Positions 21,104 through 28,911 of a stretch of DNA of 64,000 nt are shown one piece after another. A program made the position numbers and the translations under genes. The number at the start of each line of letters is the position of its first letter. The stretch's first letter is position 1. Below the pieces are notes generated by a model. The model made no database searches and had not been told where the DNA came from. It saw only the letters and a program-made list of their open reading frames with translations. Source of the stretch: Cycloclasticus sp. (GTDB lineage: Bacteria > Pseudomonadota > Gammaproteobacteria > Methylococcales > Cycloclasticaceae); the NCBI GenBank assembly GCA_002700385.1, contig PADC01000006.1, positions 62,001 to 126,000 of the forward strand, given 5' to 3'.

Positions 21104-21550
21104 TTATTCTGTGGTGACTGGTTCTTCCGAACCCTTTAGCAATGCATCTAAAGTATGCCACGGTAAGGTCGCACATTTTACTCGGGCGGGATATTCGCAA
21201 ACACCTGCCAGTACAGCTAATTTACCAAGCTCATCCATTTCAACATGTTCACCTGTCGCCATTTTATGGAATAAAGTAAATAGCTGCTCAGCCTCTTTTT
21301 CAGTTTTGCCTTTAACAATTTCGGTCATTAATGAGGCTGAAGCGGTTGATATAGCGCAACCCTGGCCTTGGAAACTCGCATCACTGATCACCCCGTCAGA
21401 AATCTTAATAAATAATGTCAGGCGGTCACCACATAAGGGATTAAAACCATCAATCTGAAGATCGGCATCGTCCATGGCACGAAAGTTCCTAGGGTTTCTA
21501 TTATGATCAAAAATAACTTCTTGATACAGGTCTCTTAAATCATCCAACAT
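21104..21550 (-). CDS. sufU: SufU-type iron-sulfur assembly protein (sulfur acceptor/scaffold)
   Basis: An IscU-fold protein that takes sulfur from SufS and passes it to SufBCD. The three conserved cysteines are Cys40 (NPLCGD, with Asp42), Cys65 (GQGCAIS) and Cys126 (RVKCATLPW). The segment before Cys126, from about residue 98 with GEHVEMDELGK, is the insertion that separates SufU from IscU. Another cysteine is at 118. Length 148 is normal. Start and stop overlap with sufS by one base. No sufE or sufA gene is present in this operon, so SufU probably replaces SufE. Confidence 0.94.
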   Translation of the reverse strand: MLDDLRDLYQEVIFDHNRNPRNFRAMDDADLQIDGFNPLCGDRLTLFIKISDGVISDASFQGQGCAISTASASLMTEIVKGKTEKEAEQLFTLFHKMATGEHVEMDELGKLAVLAGVCEYPARVKCATLPWHTLDALLKGSEEPVTTE

Positions 21551-22791
21551 TAGCCAAACATCTCAATTAAGTTTTCTATTCCATCCATTAACGCATCGAC
21601 TTCTTGAAAAGTATTATACATGGCAAAAGATGCTCTGGCTGTGGCAGGCACACCAAAAAAGTCCATAACAGGCATGGCACAATGATGACCTGCCCTGACC
21701 GCTATACCTTGATGATCCATCATGGTCCCGATATCGTGTGGGTGTATACCGTCTAAAACAAACGACATAATCGCGCCCTTGTTTTTTGCCGTGCCTATCA
21801 TTTTCAGTCTATCGATTTTTTTTGATTGCTCAACAGCATAATTTAACAATTGGTTTTCATGCTCAGCAATAGCTTCAATACCAATACCGTTGACATAATC
21901 TATGGCAGCGCCTAAGCCAATAGTACCTGCAATATTTGGCGTGCCCGCTTCAAATTTATAGGGAACTCTATTGTAAACTGTCTTATCAAATGTAACGACG
22001 CTGATCATATCGCCCCCTCCCTGATAAGGTGCCATTTGCTCCAGTTGCTCCATTTTTCCATATAACGCCCCGATGCCAGTCGGCGCATAAAGTTTATGTC
22101 CGGAAAACACATAAAATTCACAATCAAGTGCCGTCACATCAACTGCTATATGTGGAATAGCCTGCGCTCCATCAACTAAAACCGGAATTTCATATCGATG
22201 AAGTAAATCAATCATTTTTTTAATTGGGTTGATTGTCCCCAACGCATTTGACATGTGTGATATCGCAGCAAATTTTACCTTTTCGCTAATCAGTGCTTCA
22301 AATTCCTCAAAAATTAACTCACCCTGTTTATTAATTGGCGCAACTCGCAGTGTTGCACCTGTTTTTTCACACAGCATCTGCCACGGAACAATATTCGAAT
22401 GGTGTTCCATCGCTGTAATAAGAATCTCATCACCAACTGTTACAAGCTCCCTAACGGCATTAGCCACTAAATTTATGGCTTCGGTGGCACCCCGTGTGAA
22501 AACAATTTCTTTCTCAGAACCTGCGTTTAAAAACTGTTGGACCTTTTTACGTGAATTCTCATAGGAAAGTGTTGCCCGTTCACTTAACGTATGAACACCT
22601 CGATGTATATTGGCATTGTCGGTTTCATAGTAATGAACAATACTATCAATAACAGATTTTGGTTTTTGACTGGTGGCCGCATTATCCAGATAAACTAATT
22701 GTTTATCCCGAACTTTTTGATCCAATATCGGAAAATCCTGACGAATTTTTTCTACGTCATAAGGCATTGATTTTTCTACTTGTTGATTCAT
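21550..22791 (-). CDS. sufS: Cysteine desulfurase SufS
   Basis: A PLP-dependent group II cysteine desulfurase that mobilises sulfur from cysteine for Fe-S assembly. Counting from the chosen ATG, the PLP lysine is Lys233 in FSGHKLYAPTG and the catalytic cysteine Cys371 in VRAGHHCAMPVMD; the short active-site loop marks SufS rather than IscS. I place the start at the ATG at 22791, which overlaps the sufD stop as ATGA and has AAAAGAG upstream; a GTG two codons earlier is less likely. Length is then 413. It is followed by its partner sufU. Confidence 0.96.
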   Translation of the reverse strand: MNQQVEKSMPYDVEKIRQDFPILDQKVRDKQLVYLDNAATSQKPKSVIDSIVHYYETDNANIHRGVHTLSERATLSYENSRKKVQQFLNAGSEKEIVFTRGATEAINLVANAVRELVTVGDEILITAMEHHSNIVPWQMLCEKTGATLRVAPINKQGELIFEEFEALISEKVKFAAISHMSNALGTINPIKKMIDLLHRYEIPVLVDGAQAIPHIAVDVTALDCEFYVFSGHKLYAPTGIGALYGKMEQLEQMAPYQGGGDMISVVTFDKTVYNRVPYKFEAGTPNIAGTIGLGAAIDYVNGIGIEAIAEHENQLLNYAVEQSKKIDRLKMIGTAKNKGAIMSFVLDGIHPHDIGTMMDHQGIAVRAGHHCAMPVMDFFGVPATARASFAMYNTFQEVDALMDGIENLIEMFG

Positions 22792-24122
22792 AGCCACTCT
22801 TTTTTCATACCTGTTTGAGGAAAGCGTTCAAGCAGTTCGTCTAAAACAGCCAAACGGAGCGGCTTAAACTCAATCCTTTCTACCATTTCATTTGCAAATG
22901 CGAAGGTCAGCATGTTTTTTGCCATTTGCTCATCAGCGCCTCGTGAACGCAAATAGAACACCGCTGTTTCATCAAGTTGACCCACTGTTACACCATGCGC
23001 ACACTTAACGTCATCTGCATAAATTTCTAATTGTGGTTTCGTATCGACTTCAGCTCGATCAGACAGCAATAAGTTTCGGTTATTCATTTTAGAATCGGTT
23101 TTTTGCGCATCTTGAGCGACAATAATTCGCCCTTGGAAAACCCCCTGCGAACGGTCATTTAGAATACCTTTATAATATTCATGACTCGTTGCATGTGGCT
23201 GAGCATGATTTAAGCGCGTATGGTGATCCATATGTTGGCGATCTTCACCCACATACAGGCCATTTAAGGTGCAATCTGAGGCCTCACCCAGAATGGCATG
23301 GCTTTCACAACGTGATGTACTGGCCCCAAAAGTGTAATTACTTTGTTTAAATACCCCTTTATCATCCAATCGGGAATATACACCCCCAATGTGATATGCC
23401 TTTGAAGATTCGGCTTGCAGGCGATCATGCGACAACGTTGCATTAGACTCAACAACAACCTCCGTGATGGCATTTGTCAGATAGCACTCATCTTCAACAC
23501 CATGGTAAGTTTCAATAATGTGCGCCGTTGAAGCTGCTTGAGCAAAAATAAGGTTTCTTGTATTAGAAAGTGTCAACGCACCTGCTTTCGATGAAATAAA
23601 GGCCACCTGAATTGGTTTTTCAACCGCCGTATTTTCTTCAATTGAAATTATCGCCCCATCAGAGAACAAGGCAGTATTCAAACTCACAAACCCGAGCGCC
23701 GGTGTTTCAACAACTGAATCCAGTAAAGATTTAACCAGGGCTTCATTTTCTGTTATTGCTTGGCTGAGAGCGGAAACCAGTATCCCGGAGGGTAAATCAT
23801 TGACAGGCGTTGAGTAAGTTGGCTGAAAATGACCATCTACAAAAACTAAATGATAACAACCTTCCAACAAAACACTGTTGATAAAAGCTTCATCAACCGA
23901 CCCTGATTCTCTTGGCACCGTAAATTTATTTTTTTCGATGGGTGTCACGTTTGTATAACGCCACTCTTCTTCACGGAAACTTGGAAAGCCAATTTCAGAA
24001 AACTGATCCGCTGCTTTTTTTCGCAACCCATTTAGCCAGCTTATCTGGTCACCTAGCAGGACATCTTCATGCGCTGAAACCAAGCTTTTATAATGCGCGT
24101 TTGGTAAATGCAAAACAGACAT
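22788..24122 (-). CDS. sufD: Fe-S cluster assembly protein SufD
   Basis: SufD forms the SufBC2D scaffold with SufB and the ATPase SufC. The 444-residue protein has the N-terminal helical part (SEIGFPSFREEEWRYTNVTPI) and the C-terminal SufBD core, a beta-helix ending in EIYADDVKCAHGVTVGQLDE, with the strictly conserved KCAHG and the following LRSRG. This motif is shared by all SufD proteins. It lies between sufC and sufS, with a four-base overlap with sufS. Confidence 0.96.
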   Translation of the reverse strand: MSVLHLPNAHYKSLVSAHEDVLLGDQISWLNGLRKKAADQFSEIGFPSFREEEWRYTNVTPIEKNKFTVPRESGSVDEAFINSVLLEGCYHLVFVDGHFQPTYSTPVNDLPSGILVSALSQAITENEALVKSLLDSVVETPALGFVSLNTALFSDGAIISIEENTAVEKPIQVAFISSKAGALTLSNTRNLIFAQAASTAHIIETYHGVEDECYLTNAITEVVVESNATLSHDRLQAESSKAYHIGGVYSRLDDKGVFKQSNYTFGASTSRCESHAILGEASDCTLNGLYVGEDRQHMDHHTRLNHAQPHATSHEYYKGILNDRSQGVFQGRIIVAQDAQKTDSKMNNRNLLLSDRAEVDTKPQLEIYADDVKCAHGVTVGQLDETAVFYLRSRGADEQMAKNMLTFAFANEMVERIEFKPLRLAVLDELLERFPQTGMKKEWL

Positions 24123-24124
24123 AA

Positions 24125-24877
24125 TTAACTCGCTAATTTTTTATCAATCCAAGCATAGCCATGTTCTTCAAGCTCTAAAGCCAATTCAGGACCCCCTGAT
24201 TTAACAACCTTGCCGTGCGCTAGCACATGAACAAAGTCTGGTTTTATATAATCGAGAAGTCTTTGATAATGCGTTACTAATACAAATGAACGCTCCGGGC
24301 TACGTAGGCGATTAACCCCTTTTGCGACAATTTGCAGCGCATCGATATCTAGACCAGAATCTGTTTCATCCAATAAGCATAATGACGGTTCCAGCACCGA
24401 CATTTGCAAAATTTCATTGCGTTTCTTTTCACCGCCTGAAAAACCTTCATTAACTGCGCGATAAAGAAATTTCTCATCCATCTCAAGGTCTTTCATTTTA
24501 CCCTTGACCATCGAGATAAACTCCATTGCATCGACTTCGTCCAGGCCTTTAAACTTACGCATGCCATTGAGCGCTGCTTTTAATAAATAGATATTGCTCA
24601 CGCCGGGTACTTCAACGGGGTATTGAAATGCTAAAAACACGCCTGCCCAAGCACGCTCTTCAACACTCATTTCTAACAAATCTTTACCAAAAAAAAGTAC
24701 TCGACCTTCTGTGATATTGTAACCTTCCCGGCCTGCTAAAATGTACGACAAAGTACTTTTTCCGGAACCATTAGGCCCCATAATTGCGTGAACTTCGCCC
24801 GCACCAATTTCCAAATTGATACCTTTAAGAATTTCTTTACCTTCAACACTGACGTGTAAATTTTCAACCTTTAACAT
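24125..24877 (-). CDS. sufC: Fe-S assembly ATPase SufC
   Basis: The ABC-type ATPase of SufBC2D. Counting from the ATG at 24877 (MLKVENLHVSVEG), the Walker A GPNGSGKS is at residues 34-41; the ABC signature GFSGGEKKRNEI and Walker B LCLLDETDSGLD follow. Length is 250, close to other SufC proteins. The open frame extends 40 codons upstream into sufB with no homology, and AAGGAA lies 8 bases before the chosen ATG, so the long version is rejected. Confidence 0.96.
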   Translation of the reverse strand: MLKVENLHVSVEGKEILKGINLEIGAGEVHAIMGPNGSGKSTLSYILAGREGYNITEGRVLFFGKDLLEMSVEERAWAGVFLAFQYPVEVPGVSNIYLLKAALNGMRKFKGLDEVDAMEFISMVKGKMKDLEMDEKFLYRAVNEGFSGGEKKRNEILQMSVLEPSLCLLDETDSGLDIDALQIVAKGVNRLRSPERSFVLVTHYQRLLDYIKPDFVHVLAHGKVVKSGGPELALELEEHGYAWIDKKLAS

Positions 24878-24899: not shown

Positions 24900-26348
24900 T
24901 TAACCAACACTGCCTTCAAGGCTAATTCCAAGTAACGCCTGCGCTTCAACCGCAAACTCCATCGGTAATTCTTTAAATACTTCCTTACAAAAACCATTCA
25001 CTATCATGGAGACAGCATCTTCTGCTGAAATACCTCGTTGCATACAATAAAATAATTGGTCTTCGCTGATTTTAGAGGTTGAGGCTTCATGCTCTATTGT
25101 TGCACTTGGGTGTTTTGTTTCTATATAGGGAAACGTATGCGCACCGCACTCATCACCCAGTAGTAACGAATCACATTGTGTGTAATTCCGAGAATTTTCT
25201 GCCTGACGCCCTACTTTGACTAAGCCACGATAGGTATTTTGACCCTTACCGGCTGATATACCTTTTGAAATAATGGTACTTTTTGTATTTTTGCCGAGAT
25301 GAATCATTTTTGTACCCGTGTCAGCCTGCTGGTAATTATTCGTTAACGCGACAGAATAAAATTCACCCACTGAGTGATCGCCCGTTAAAACGACGCTTGG
25401 GTATTTCCAGGTGATAGCAGAGCCCGTTTCGACCTGTGTCCACGATACTTTTGCATTGTCTTCTCGGCAATCAGCACGTTTAGTCACAAAATTATAAATA
25501 CCGCCCACACCGTTCTCATCGCCTGGGTACCAATTTTGCACAGTTGAATATTTAATTTCCGCATCTTTCAAAACAACAAGCTCAACGACGGCTGCATGCA
25601 ATTGATTTTCATCACGCATAGGTGCAGTACAACCTTCAAGATAACTGACATGACTGCCTTCATCAGCGACGATTAAAGTACGCTCAAATTGCCCAGTATT
25701 AGCAGCATTTATTCTAAAGTAAGTAGACAGTTCCATCGGACAACGAACGCCTTTGGGAATATAAACAAATGAACCATCACTGAAAACAGCTGCATTAAGC
25801 GCCGCATAAAAATTATCATACTGCGAAACAACGGTTCCCAAATACTGTTTAATTAAATCCGGGTGTTCTTTTACCGCTTCGGAAAACGAACAAAAAATAA
25901 CCCCTGCTTCAGCTAACTTATCCTTAAACGTTGTAGCCACAGACACGCTATCAAACACCGCATCAACAGCAACACCTGCTAGGCGCATTTGTTCTTCTAA
26001 AGGAATACCTAATTTATTGTATGTACTAATTAATTCCGGATCGACTTCATCCAGACTTTTTGGCCCATCTTCCATGCTCTTAGGCGCTGAGTAATAACTG
26101 ATTTCTTGAAAATCAATATCAGGAAACTCGACAAATGACCACTCAGGATGCTCCATTGTTAACCAATGTCGATAAGCCTCTAATCTCCATTCAAGTAAAA
26201 ACTCGGGTTCTTCTTTTTTCGCCGACAAGGCCCGTATAACATCTTCATTCAACCCGGGGGGAAACGAATCTGACTCGATGTCGGTAACAAAGCCATCTTT
26301 ATAATCTTGGCCAATCATGTTTTTTAAATTTTCATTAGATGCTGACAT
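24900..26348 (-). CDS. sufB: Fe-S cluster assembly scaffold SufB
   Basis: The main scaffold subunit on which the cluster forms. The 482-residue sequence has the N-terminal SufB signature ([21 protein letters not shown] region) and the core with [20 protein letters not shown] and [11 protein letters not shown]. The C-terminal [20 protein letters not shown] stretch includes the conserved EHEASTS motif and the cysteine used for cluster assembly. It is the first structural gene after the Rrf2 regulator, whose stop directly precedes its ATG. Confidence 0.98.
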
Positions 26349-26819
26349 CTAGCTCTCCACTTTTAAATCACTGGTTTTACTCACTATGGGCATATTAACG
26401 CTCACAGCTTGCTGTCTAACAGGGGTGACCATATCAGCCAAACTAACTGCTTCAATAGCTGTATAAACGGCTCTATTGATTAAATGCCAGTTGCCTTTAA
26501 CCTCGCACGAAGACTCTTGCTCACAAACCCCCGTCAACGTACTGCATTCAGTCATGCTGATTGGCCCTTCAATGGCCGTTATAATTTCAGCGATGTTTGT
26601 TTGGCTTGGTTCTTTTGCCAGCGTATAGCCACCCTTTGAACCACGATGAGAGATCAAGATGTTGTTCTTTGTTAATAACTTTAACACTTTACTCACCGTT
26701 GGCAGAGCCACACCTGTCGCACTTGTTAAGTCAGACGCCGTATGAAGCCCGTTGGGATAATGGGCAATGTGCGTTAAAATAACACTCGCATAATCTGTTA
26801 ATTTACTCACTCTAAGCAT
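26349..26819 (-). CDS. Rrf2-family SUF operon regulator (SufR type)
   Basis: An Rrf2 transcription factor of the gammaproteobacterial SUF-regulator type, which senses Fe-S status through a bound cluster. The N-terminal winged helix (KLTDYASVILTHIAHYPNG...TGVALPTVSKVLKLL, with the wing SHRGSKGGYTLAK) is complete. Three cysteines, Cys92, Cys99 and Cys105 (ECSTLTGVCEQESSCEVKG), match the cluster-binding pattern of IscR relatives. The ATG at 26819 has GGGGTGA upstream and is preferred over a GTG two codons earlier. It is encoded first in the operon, and a palindromic operator covers its own promoter, suggesting autorepression. Confidence 0.92.
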   Translation of the reverse strand: MLRVSKLTDYASVILTHIAHYPNGLHTASDLTSATGVALPTVSKVLKLLTKNNILISHRGSKGGYTLAKEPSQTNIAEIITAIEGPISMTECSTLTGVCEQESSCEVKGNWHLINRAVYTAIEAVSLADMVTPVRQQAVSVNMPIVSKTSDLKVES

Positions 26820-26830
26820 AATCACCCCAC

Positions 26831-26855
26831 ATATAGGACTATTTTAGTACTATAT
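26831..26855. promoter_or_regulatory. IscR type-1-like palindromic operator of sufR
   Basis: A 25-base pseudo-palindrome, ATATAG-GACT-ATTTTAGT-ACTATAT on the plus strand (hyphens mark blocks). On the minus strand it has the IscR type-1 layout: ATA ... ACT-AAAAT-AGTC ... TAT with the same 25-base span. It overlaps the -10 box of the proposed sufR promoter, so binding would block transcription. Confidence 0.75.
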
Positions 26856-26869
26856 GACTGCTCTGTATA
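26841..26869 (-). promoter_or_regulatory. sufR-sufBCDSU promoter
   Basis: On the minus strand TATACA (26864-26869) and TAAAAT (26841-26846) are separated by exactly 17 bases, giving 4/6 and 5/6 matches to consensus. The -10 box lies inside the palindromic operator. The predicted start of transcription is about 10-20 bases before the sufR ATG. Confidence 0.6.
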
Positions 26870-26953
26870 GAAAAAGTTTCCAGCCATTCAATAATCGGGC
26901 GTTATTAACCACTTTAAAAGAATCAACAAGAAAGTGCTAAATACAAGCCGGAC

Positions 26954-27169
26954 TTAATCTTCTAACACAATACATAAAGTTTGATCAGCGAACTTAACAA
27001 CATCACCCGACATAATTTTCTTTCGCTTTCTTGTCTCTATTTCGCCATTTACCGTCACCAGGCCTTGGCTAATCACCGCTTTCGCTTCACCACCGCTTGA
27101 CACAAGAGCTTCAAATTTCAATACTTTATAAAGCTCCACCGGTTCATCAGGAATTTCAACGACTCTCAT
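26954..27169 (-). CDS. Small RNA-binding S4 domain protein (YbcJ-like)
   Basis: A 71-residue protein that is essentially one S4 RNA-binding domain, as in E. coli YbcJ. Typical points are LYKVLKFEALVSSGGEAKAVISQG followed by VTVNGEIETRKRKKI and a terminal GDVVKFADQTLCI (pieces of one continuous domain). The frame opens at a TTG at 27175; I prefer the ATG at 27169, with GAGGCGG about 9 bases upstream. It follows recJ by about 15 bp and is probably co-transcribed with it. Role unknown; ribosome- or RNA-related by domain. Confidence 0.85.
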   Translation of the reverse strand: MRVVEIPDEPVELYKVLKFEALVSSGGEAKAVISQGLVTVNGEIETRKRKKIMSGDVVKFADQTLCIVLED

Positions 27170-27183
27170 TATCAAAACCGCCT

Positions 27184-28911
27184 CTATATAACGTGTTTGA
27201 CCATCAATTGGGCACTTGAACGCCCCAAATAGGTATTGACGTCTAATTGATAAACGATCATCACCTCAGCCAAGCCGATAATGGCATCAGGATTCTCTAC
27301 GTTAAAATAAATAGCATCTAATTTCCTGTTAGCCTTGAACGTTGCCAACTCCAATTTCACATGCTTTTGACTTAGAATTCTTGCATTTCGAACCTTAAAT
27401 TTTCCAACAAATTGCGGCTCTGGAAAATGTTGGCCCCATGGGCCTGCTTGACGGAGCCGCATCGCCAGATCCAGATTAATCTCTGTTTCCTCTATTTCAC
27501 CATCCACTAAAAACACATTCTCGGGAATTTGAGCATTCAGTCTTTTTTTTACGGCTTGATTAAAGACCTCAGTAAAAAAGTCAAAATCCTTCTCAGCAAA
27601 GCTCATTCCAGCGGCCATGGCATGACCACCAAATTTTTTTAAAAGACCGGGGTGTTGACTAGCAATGTCATCCAAGGTGTCCCTTATATGCAAGCCAGAA
27701 ATTGATCTCGCCGAGCCTTTTATCTCACCTTGACCTGCTTTTGCGAATGCAATAACAGGGCGATTACATTTTTCTTTAATGCGTGACGCTAAAATACCGA
27801 TAACACCTTGGTGCCAATGCTCGTCAAACAAGCATATACCCCATTGTTCCTGCCCACTGTCCTGTATTTTTAAGGAATCAAGAATTTTGAACGCATCTTT
27901 TTTCATATCCTCTTCAATAGAACGGCGCTCTATATTAAGCAGGTCGAGTTGCTCAGCAATCTCTTGTGCCTCTGATGCGTTATCTGTCAATAAACATTGA
28001 ATCCCAAGTGACATATCATCTAAACGCCCAGCCGCATTGAGCCTTGGAGCAATAGCAAACCCTAAATCACTTGAAACGACTTGATCAGGGTCTCGCTTTG
28101 CAATACGCAACAATGCTTCAATCCCTGGAACACATTGATGTGACTGAATTCTTAAGATACCTTGATGCACTAACTTACGATTCGTTTCATCCATCGGTAC
28201 AACATCAGCCACCGTGCCTAAAGCAACAATGTCTAATAAATTGGCAAGGTTCGGCTTAGCCCTGTTGTCGAAGCTACCGTCCTCATTCAGGGAGGCTCGT
28301 AAAGCAAGTAGCACATAAAAGATCACGCCCACACCAGCTAGAGCTTTGCTGGGAAATTCATCTTGAAGTAATTGTGGATTAACAATCGCATCAGCTATAG
28401 GCAATTGCTGGGGGGGTAAATGATGATCTGTTACAACAACTTGGCAGCCTTTTTTAATGGCATAAGCAACGCCATCGACACTTGAAATACCATTATCTAC
28501 AGTGATGATTAAATCAGGCTTTAACTCAAGCGCGACATCTACTATTTCAGGCGTCAAACCATAACCAAATTTAAAGCGGTCTGGCACGACAAAATCAACA
28601 TTAGTAGCGCCTAACATCTTTAACCCCCTAATGGCAACAGCGCAGGATGTTGCGCCATCAGCATCAAAATCAGCCACAATCAGTATTTTTTTTTGCGCCT
28701 TAATAGCACGCTTTATAATTTTGACAGCCTCAGCAATACCTGACAAATGTTCAAAACCTGGCAAGTTCTTTAAAGTACGATCCAGCTGTTCAGGCTGAGC
28801 AACACCACGATTTAAGTACACACGACGTAAAACCGGATGTAAATCTGCTAAAGCACCCGCGTCATGAGCAGTTGCTTCACGGTGCTTTATTAAAACAGTT
28901 GGCTTTACCAA
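27184..28911 (-). CDS. recJ: Single-stranded-DNA exonuclease RecJ
   Basis: RecJ degrades single-stranded DNA 5' to 3' in recombination and mismatch repair. DHH motif I is DFDADGAT at residues 81-88, and TDHHLPP (Asp162-His163-His164) is the namesake motif; the DHHA1 region contains SGRSISG-like KGSARSISGLHIRD and GGHAMAAGMSF. Length 575 is typical. The start is TTG at 28911, without a clear Shine-Dalgarno, but homology runs to this end and no other start fits. It is 14 bp after thrC. Confidence 0.96.
   Translation of the reverse strand: MVKPTVLIKHREATAHDAGALADLHPVLRRVYLNRGVAQPEQLDRTLKNLPGFEHLSGIAEAVKIIKRAIKAQKKILIVADFDADGATSCAVAIRGLKMLGATNVDFVVPDRFKFGYGLTPEIVDVALELKPDLIITVDNGISSVDGVAYAIKKGCQVVVTDHHLPPQQLPIADAIVNPQLLQDEFPSKALAGVGVIFYVLLALRASLNEDGSFDNRAKPNLANLLDIVALGTVADVVPMDETNRKLVHQGILRIQSHQCVPGIEALLRIAKRDPDQVVSSDLGFAIAPRLNAAGRLDDMSLGIQCLLTDNASEAQEIAEQLDLLNIERRSIEEDMKKDAFKILDSLKIQDSGQEQWGICLFDEHWHQGVIGILASRIKEKCNRPVIAFAKAGQGEIKGSARSISGLHIRDTLDDIASQHPGLLKKFGGHAMAAGMSFAEKDFDFFTEVFNQAVKKRLNAQIPENVFLVDGEIEETEINLDLAMRLRQAGPWGQHFPEPQFVGKFKVRNARILSQKHVKLELATFKANRKLDAIYFNVENPDAIIGLAEVMIVYQLDVNTYLGRSSAQLMVKHVI

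Follow-up and report, generated by a model that had tools for sequence, protein, structure and literature searches.

A conserved palindrome at the sufR promoter of Cycloclasticus is very probably the SufR operator and departs from the IscR type-1 site in its outer bases

The window (the whole 64-kb stretch of Cycloclasticus DNA analysed here) carries a suf operon preceded by a regulatory gene, sufR:

26349-26819, minus strand: sufR, SUF regulator of the Rrf2 family (TIGR02944) with Asp9 and a recognition helix at residues 39-51, from profile match and alignment
24900-26348, minus strand: sufB, from profile match
24125-24877, minus strand: sufC, start predicted from where TIGR01978 matches (the open reading frame as listed is longer)
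22788-24122, minus strand: sufD
21550-22797, minus strand: sufS, from profile match
21104-21550, minus strand: sufU

SufR contains the Rrf2 domain (Pfam PF02082) and scores 156.3 bits against the TIGR02944 profile, over the cut-off of 110.65. Its only cysteines are Cys92, Cys99 and Cys105, in agreement with the original prediction, which had placed an Rrf2 gene with three cysteines directly behind the palindrome described below. In the window sufB comes directly after sufR, and it is found at most 1.5 kb behind sufR in 108 of the 109 other loci compared (L103 being the exception). The genome, which comprises 13 contigs totalling 2.5 Mb and is 99.99% complete, yields one Rrf2 match; IscR, IscU and IscS scoring over the curated cut-offs were not found in it. 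Also encoded in it, at C7:1936-3084 (L017) and C4:71222-72328 (L018), are two cysteine desulfurases that are IscS/NifS-like but fall short of the IscS cut-off.

An AlphaFold2 model of SufR (mean pLDDT 81.0) is confident over recognition helix 39-51 and poor over residues 91-110. The best solved fold for this model is CymR (2y75; Z 17.4, 2.5 A over 127 residues), and further matches include 3lwf (Z 16.2), IscR (4hf2, Z 15.7), RsrR (6hsm, Z 15.1) and NsrR (7b0c, Z 13.7). Matches of a predicted structure such as these agree with an Rrf2 fold and are silent on the type of cluster.

The sequence preceding sufR has the following elements:

26864-26869, minus strand: -35 hexamer TATACA, 17-bp spacer to the -10, from consensus promoter scan and orthologue comparison
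26831-26855, minus strand: predicted SufR operator, 25-bp palindrome ATATAGTACTAAAATAGTCCTATAT, from sequence, matrix score and conservation before orthologues
26841-26846, minus strand: -10 hexamer TAAAAT at the centre of the operator, from consensus promoter scan and orthologue comparison
26825-26828, minus strand: GGGG, likely ribosome-binding site, assigned by eye

The palindrome is a 25-mer, read from 26855 to 26831, in which 10 of 12 dyad pairs match and whose centre, at 26843, falls in the -10 box of the sufR promoter. A short leader separates it from the sufR start codon, the ATG at 26819. The same promoter was listed by a consensus scan, and the palindrome, the promoter with 17-base spacing and the overlap with the -10 box, all originally predicted, are borne out in sequence and coordinates. 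A terminator reading of the palindrome was discarded, no terminator being found in 26750-27250.

Taken on its own, be it as a dyad or as a match to the IscR type-1 consensus, the palindrome is at chance level for 64 kb. Odd-centred dyads with at least 10 of 12 pairs matched occur five times in the window, as compared to a mean of 3.25 and a maximum of 10 in 20 dinucleotide shuffles. The published type-1 consensus, ATASYYGACTRWWWYAGTCRRSTAT (PMC3899308), is matched by the palindrome at 18 of 25 positions on either strand; the window offers 32 placements at 18 or better (26 at 18 and 6 at 19), while 20 dinucleotide shuffles offer 23.6 such placements on average and 36 at most. No match to this consensus with three or fewer mismatches is found in the 64-kb window. 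Type-1 identity of the sufR site was rejected on these two counts, chance-level similarity and the lack of any closer match. The palindrome stands far above chance because it is conserved before sufR orthologues: a matrix made from the sites of the other orthologues scores 38.4 bits at 26843, the runner-up in the window reaching 11.6 bits.

Alignment of the regions upstream of sufR orthologues, the check that had accompanied the original prediction, showed the palindrome to be conserved. The set comprised the window, 15 loci and a further 30 from the same family and order (the 30 being those listed among 224 over the cut-off, from 258 genomes searched) and, from named genomes, the 80 best among 382 relatives, a total of 126, from which removal of exact duplicates left 110 distinct loci. 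The strict core GKAC-N7-GTMC lies at most 150 bp upstream of sufR in 100 of these 110 orthologues. In 100 shuffled sets the same pattern averaged 0.44 occurrences and never exceeded 2, and it occurred in none of the 110 when a 150-bp stretch within the gene was examined. All ten loci without the core have another copy, distant or variant. Three of them carry close variants of the operator (L038, L041 and L100) and one a weak site of 4.5 bits (L125), all at -27 to -34; in the other six (L109, L113, L116, L121, L124 and L128) a strong site is located farther out, at -178 to -256. Consistent with this, four of 110 cores were counted at -250 to -130, corresponding to the misses L109, L113, L121 and L128. 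In a held-out set of 53 genes (187 genomes of the class gave 55 TIGR02944 genes over the cut-off, two of which had already been used), 52 have a site within 400 bp that scores above all 265 shuffles (maximum, 2.4 bits). The lowest held-out sites score 10.1 and 3.1 bits, the latter (L212) barely above the shuffles. The remaining gene, L241, has no operator within 400 bp, and the recognition helix of its product reads ATVRKVMN; a regulator with so changed a helix may read another word.

Some individual arrangements deserve mention. In L109, L116, L124 and L128 the operator is found 234-256 bp before sufR, just behind a TTGAC-like hexamer; at such a distance, site and sufR should be separated by an extended leader or by a small gene. 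Two loci (L107 and L088) present two core matches each within 150 bp upstream of sufR. In the Cycloclasticus symbiont of a sponge (L059), the right arm of the operator abuts the sufR start codon (TATATG), so that the leader and the ribosome-binding site of its relatives are absent and the mRNA should be leaderless.

Does the conserved palindrome belong to SufR, or could it be the site of another regulator, or simply a conserved promoter? The -35 and -10 of the overlapped promoter are themselves conserved, as the latter reading would have it. Over the 100 sites, the match to TTGACA is 3.33 out of 6 at a spacing of 17 bp, as opposed to 1.28-1.86 at 15, 16, 18 and 19 bp; the upstream hexamer TTTACT is found in 45 of the 100 orthologous sites, and the -10 element, lying within the operator, adds to the conservation of the operator middle. 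The bases at the outer edges tell against this reading, however. A at -12 (99 of 100 sites) and T at +12 (96 of 100) are nearly invariant although they lie outside the -10 and were not demanded by the search pattern, which in picking the sites for the operator logo required only G-7, AC, GT and C+7. Moreover, the site accompanies sufR across many families and in six loci is far upstream, and its G-7, present with Ser43 regulators in 287 of 292 half-sites, varies with SufR's own helix (see below). We thus regard a site for another regulator, or a mere promoter, as very improbable. The distance from site centre to start codon ranges from 11 to 65 bp in the 100 sites. Exact overlap of operator and -10 is not universal, given that six loci have far-upstream sites and that the mid-operator hexamer reads TAAAAT in no more than 54 of the 100.

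A search of the genome for further sites with at most three mismatches to the 25-mer returned a single one, the sufR operator. The 15-base core, with up to two mismatches, was found at 4 + 6 places versus 21 + 17 for the reversed control. When the 3-kb stretches round those ten places were scored, sufR gave 38.4 bits and all others 13.7 or less; since only the sufR place scores high, we claim no further target in this genome. Scanning 121 genomes of the order with the core pattern produced matches in 90, at places not tied singly to sufR. Cross-control of iscR by SufR, in the manner of RisR, was also considered and rejected, the strict SufR core being found in 0 of 27 IscR promoters.

These IscR promoters are the distinct ones among 31 loci, namely the 30 best-scoring loci from 121 genomes of the order and E. 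coli iscR. A site like ATAGTTGACTATTTTACTAGG is present in 23 of the 27 and served to build an IscR matrix; the other four (L134, L141, L150 and L158) were unmatched by the search pattern. SufR and IscR sites have a common frame, the inner ACY-N5-RGT, and differ outside it: positions -8/-7 are A/G in SufR sites versus T/T in IscR sites, and positions +7/+8 are C and then mostly T versus G/G. With the two matrices, almost all sites can be told apart. The SufR matrix gives 0.0 bits or less on IscR promoters, as compared to 10.1 to 37.6 (median 33.6) on its own sites in leave-one-out scoring. With the IscR matrix, SufR sites score 12.6 at best (median -1.5), and the sites of the IscR promoters themselves score 13.3 to 37.4, with a median of 29.8. 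Over whole SufR upstream stretches, the median score with the IscR matrix is -1.7 bits (-12.6 when shuffled) and the best is 14.7, just over that of its weakest own site (shuffled, 4.7 or less).

The original prediction had described the palindrome as type-1-like and had suggested that SufR-type proteins may read the same site as IscR. The likeness is real for the group, 52 of 110 SufR promoters matching the type-1 consensus at 18 or more of 25 positions as compared to 1 of 110 after shuffling and 27 of 27 IscR promoters; for the window site alone it does not exceed chance. The suggestion of a common site is not supported, in view of the absence of the strict core from the IscR promoters, the separation achieved by the matrices and the difference between the recognition helices. 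It is likewise extremely improbable that the palindrome is a true type-1 site recognised by IscR, or by a SufR sharing IscR's specificity. Such a reading would explain the group likeness, the shared inner frame, the A and T at positions -12 and +12 common to both kinds of site and the 18 matches of 25. It has to contend, however, with a genome in which IscR was not found and with a match that is at chance in 64 kb, besides the results with core and matrices, and the SYLEQ helix is found in 26 of 26 IscR proteins of the order and in none of the 110 SufR.

The segment corresponding to SYLEQ in SufR is PTVSK (Pro40, Thr41, Val42, Ser43, Lys44). Ser43 and Lys44 are present in all 110 SufR of the first set, and Glu43 and Gln44 in all 26 IscR; the minor-groove Arg59 is kept in 109 of 110 SufR. 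In IscR, the major-groove residues are described as Ser40, Glu43 and Gln44, with Glu43 touching the bases at the +/-7 and +/-8 positions (PMC9338935, PMC5411485). Covariation between residue 43 and base 7 was counted after rechoosing the sites with +/-7 and +/-8 ignored. This covered 160 of 163 loci; L241, L116 and L124 were left out as having no site in the 260-bp stretch (in the last two the site is at its edge). G at -7 occurs in 287 of 292 half-sites when residue 43 is Ser, in 6 of 16 when it is Arg, and in 11 of 12 with other residues. Comparing Ser43 with all other residues gives a Fisher p of about 1e-9, a value that counts related sequences as independent. On the tree, the number of independent pairs is 5 (Arg) or 10 (any change) with all branches and 1 on starred branches, and significance is out of reach because independent events are too few. 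Altogether, these comparisons suggest that operator specificity resides at +/-7 and +/-8 and is probably read by helix residues 43-44.

A second point on which SufR and IscR diverge is the set of potential cluster ligands. The columns of IscR C92, C98 and C104 are Cys in 110 of 110 SufR, with spacings of 6 and 5 residues in 104 of the 110. The His107 of IscR, present in 26 of 26 IscR, is found in 0 of 110 SufR (it is Lys in the window). Conversely, the position of Asp8 in NsrR is Asp in 110 of 110 SufR (Asp9 in the window) and Arg in 26 of 26 IscR. The gene-start search pattern contains this Asp, but no locus failed the pattern, which excludes selection for the residue. Two observations count against ligation by Asp: one of the 53 held-out SufR (L256) has Glu at this position, the other 52 having Asp, and the position of Arg12 in NsrR is occupied by Val, Ile, Leu or Met in SufR. 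From these alignments, the SufR cluster would probably be held by three Cys and an NsrR-type Asp9 and not by the Cys3His set of IscR, this being the least certain step of our interpretation; with three Cys and Asp, and without His107, [4Fe-4S] is the better guess.

We consider it highly probable that the palindrome is the operator of an Fe-S-responsive autorepressor, SufR; binding, repression and cluster dependence we infer. When clusters are plentiful, a cluster-loaded SufR dimer would occupy the -10 box together with the probable start point, excluding RNA polymerase and turning down sufR-sufB-C-D-S-U; on iron or cluster shortage, SufR would lose its cluster and let go, and the operon would be made. 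Repression by occlusion is the plain reading of a dimer presumed to be in such a position. Autorepression had been part of the original prediction, and in this conditional form it gains from the conservation of the palindrome, its location on the promoter and the three cysteines in 110 of 110 orthologues. A variant of this scheme, in which the palindrome is SufR's operator but apo-SufR represses too, the cluster tuning affinity instead of switching binding, appears unlikely. It takes its rationale from the absence in SufR of Glu43, by which IscR without its cluster is prevented from binding type-1 sites. Ser43 is present in each of the 110 first-set orthologues, and apo-IscR with the E43A change is described as binding type-1 sites (PMC5411485, PMC3899308). 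The SufR site is not type 1, however, so the Glu43 clash need not apply, and RisR with three Cys-to-Ala changes is reported to fail to repress (PMC9973013).

With SufR as a cluster-dependent autorepressor, the separate lines of evidence can be joined in a broader picture, whose chance of being right as a whole we put at slightly under even. IscR on isc and SufR on suf would act side by side in many genomes of the order, both using the ACY-N5-RGT frame. The bases at +/-7 and +/-8 would be set by residues 43-44, Glu-Gln in one case versus Ser-Lys in the other, with Arg43 going together with A at -7. The SufR word would be a broad one, extending across Gamma- and Betaproteobacteria and contigs labelled Acidobacteria, and the cluster would be a [4Fe-4S] with three Cys and an Asp from the partner subunit as ligands.

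TIGR02944 proteins precede SUF genes in many bacteria, some seemingly without IscR, this genome included. No operator for this family and no binding or expression results for any of its members were found in the literature searched; for the operator this is weak evidence, subscription papers being mostly outside that search. The work of Fuangthong (2015) on X. campestris IscR reportedly concerns a TIGR02944-family protein. Real and conserved as it is, an operator through which a regulator of Fe-S biogenesis controls its own gene is rather ordinary in kind; the point of interest is that sister regulators use one frame with different outer letters. A conserved operator makes SufR targets searchable in genomes and ties the family to RisR, the one studied parallel. 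It also carries a warning that such sites should not be annotated as IscR type 1. SufR and IscR form a natural sister pair for probing DNA specificity and cluster control in Rrf2 proteins by changing single residues and single bases.

Among known systems, IscR of E. coli and relatives resembles SufR as an Rrf2 autorepressor of its own Fe-S operon, with three Cys, a promoter site and the ACY-N5-RGT frame; it differs in the +/-7 and +/-8 bases, the recognition helix, the His107 ligand and an Arg8 where SufR has Asp. SufR scores 63.8 bits against the IscR profile TIGR02010, below the cut-off of 207.55, and 49.2 bits against the NsrR profile NF008240, below the cut-off of 182. The operator of NsrR differs from that of SufR. 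SufR resembles NsrR in having Asp at the Asp8 position and Lys at 44 and in lacking His107, but does not keep Arg12, and sufR is linked to suf, not to NO genes. The NsrR of S. coelicolor is described as a [4Fe-4S] protein whose cluster ligands are three Cys and, from the other subunit, Asp8 (PMC5411485). The SufR of cyanobacteria and actinobacteria, described as a DeoR-family protein that has the motif C-X12-C-X13-C-X14-C and binds CAAC-N6-GTTG (PMC8593673), has the name and the role of Fe-S autorepressor of suf in common with the protein studied here, which is an Rrf2 protein with three Cys and lacks that motif.

Compared by published description, the nearest relative of the SufR system is most likely RisR of Myxococcus xanthus, a better parallel than IscR. 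RisR is reported to be an Rrf2 protein of group IS6, on a branch other than that of IscR, which represses suf and isc; its operator, the imperfect palindrome T(T/G)GAC-N7-GTCC(T/A), was footprinted over the -10/-35 of suf, and operator mutation raised isc threefold and suf fourfold (PMC9973013). By the same account, its cysteines are needed for repression, its cluster is probably [4Fe-4S], and Ser40, Glu43 and Gln44 of IscR are not conserved. RisR and SufR would thus be alike as Rrf2 suf repressors with three cysteines and an operator at the promoter, and the right half of the RisR operator, GTCC(T/A), equals the SufR half-site. The left half is T(T/G)GAC in RisR versus AGKAC in SufR, the cysteines are C92-C102-C108 versus C92-C99-C105, and RisR also represses isc. 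The RisR core GAC-N7-GTC is approached in the window on the suf promoter, where one half only is GAC (GGAC...GTAC, plus strand), and both of its halves are present in orthologues such as L008 and L028.
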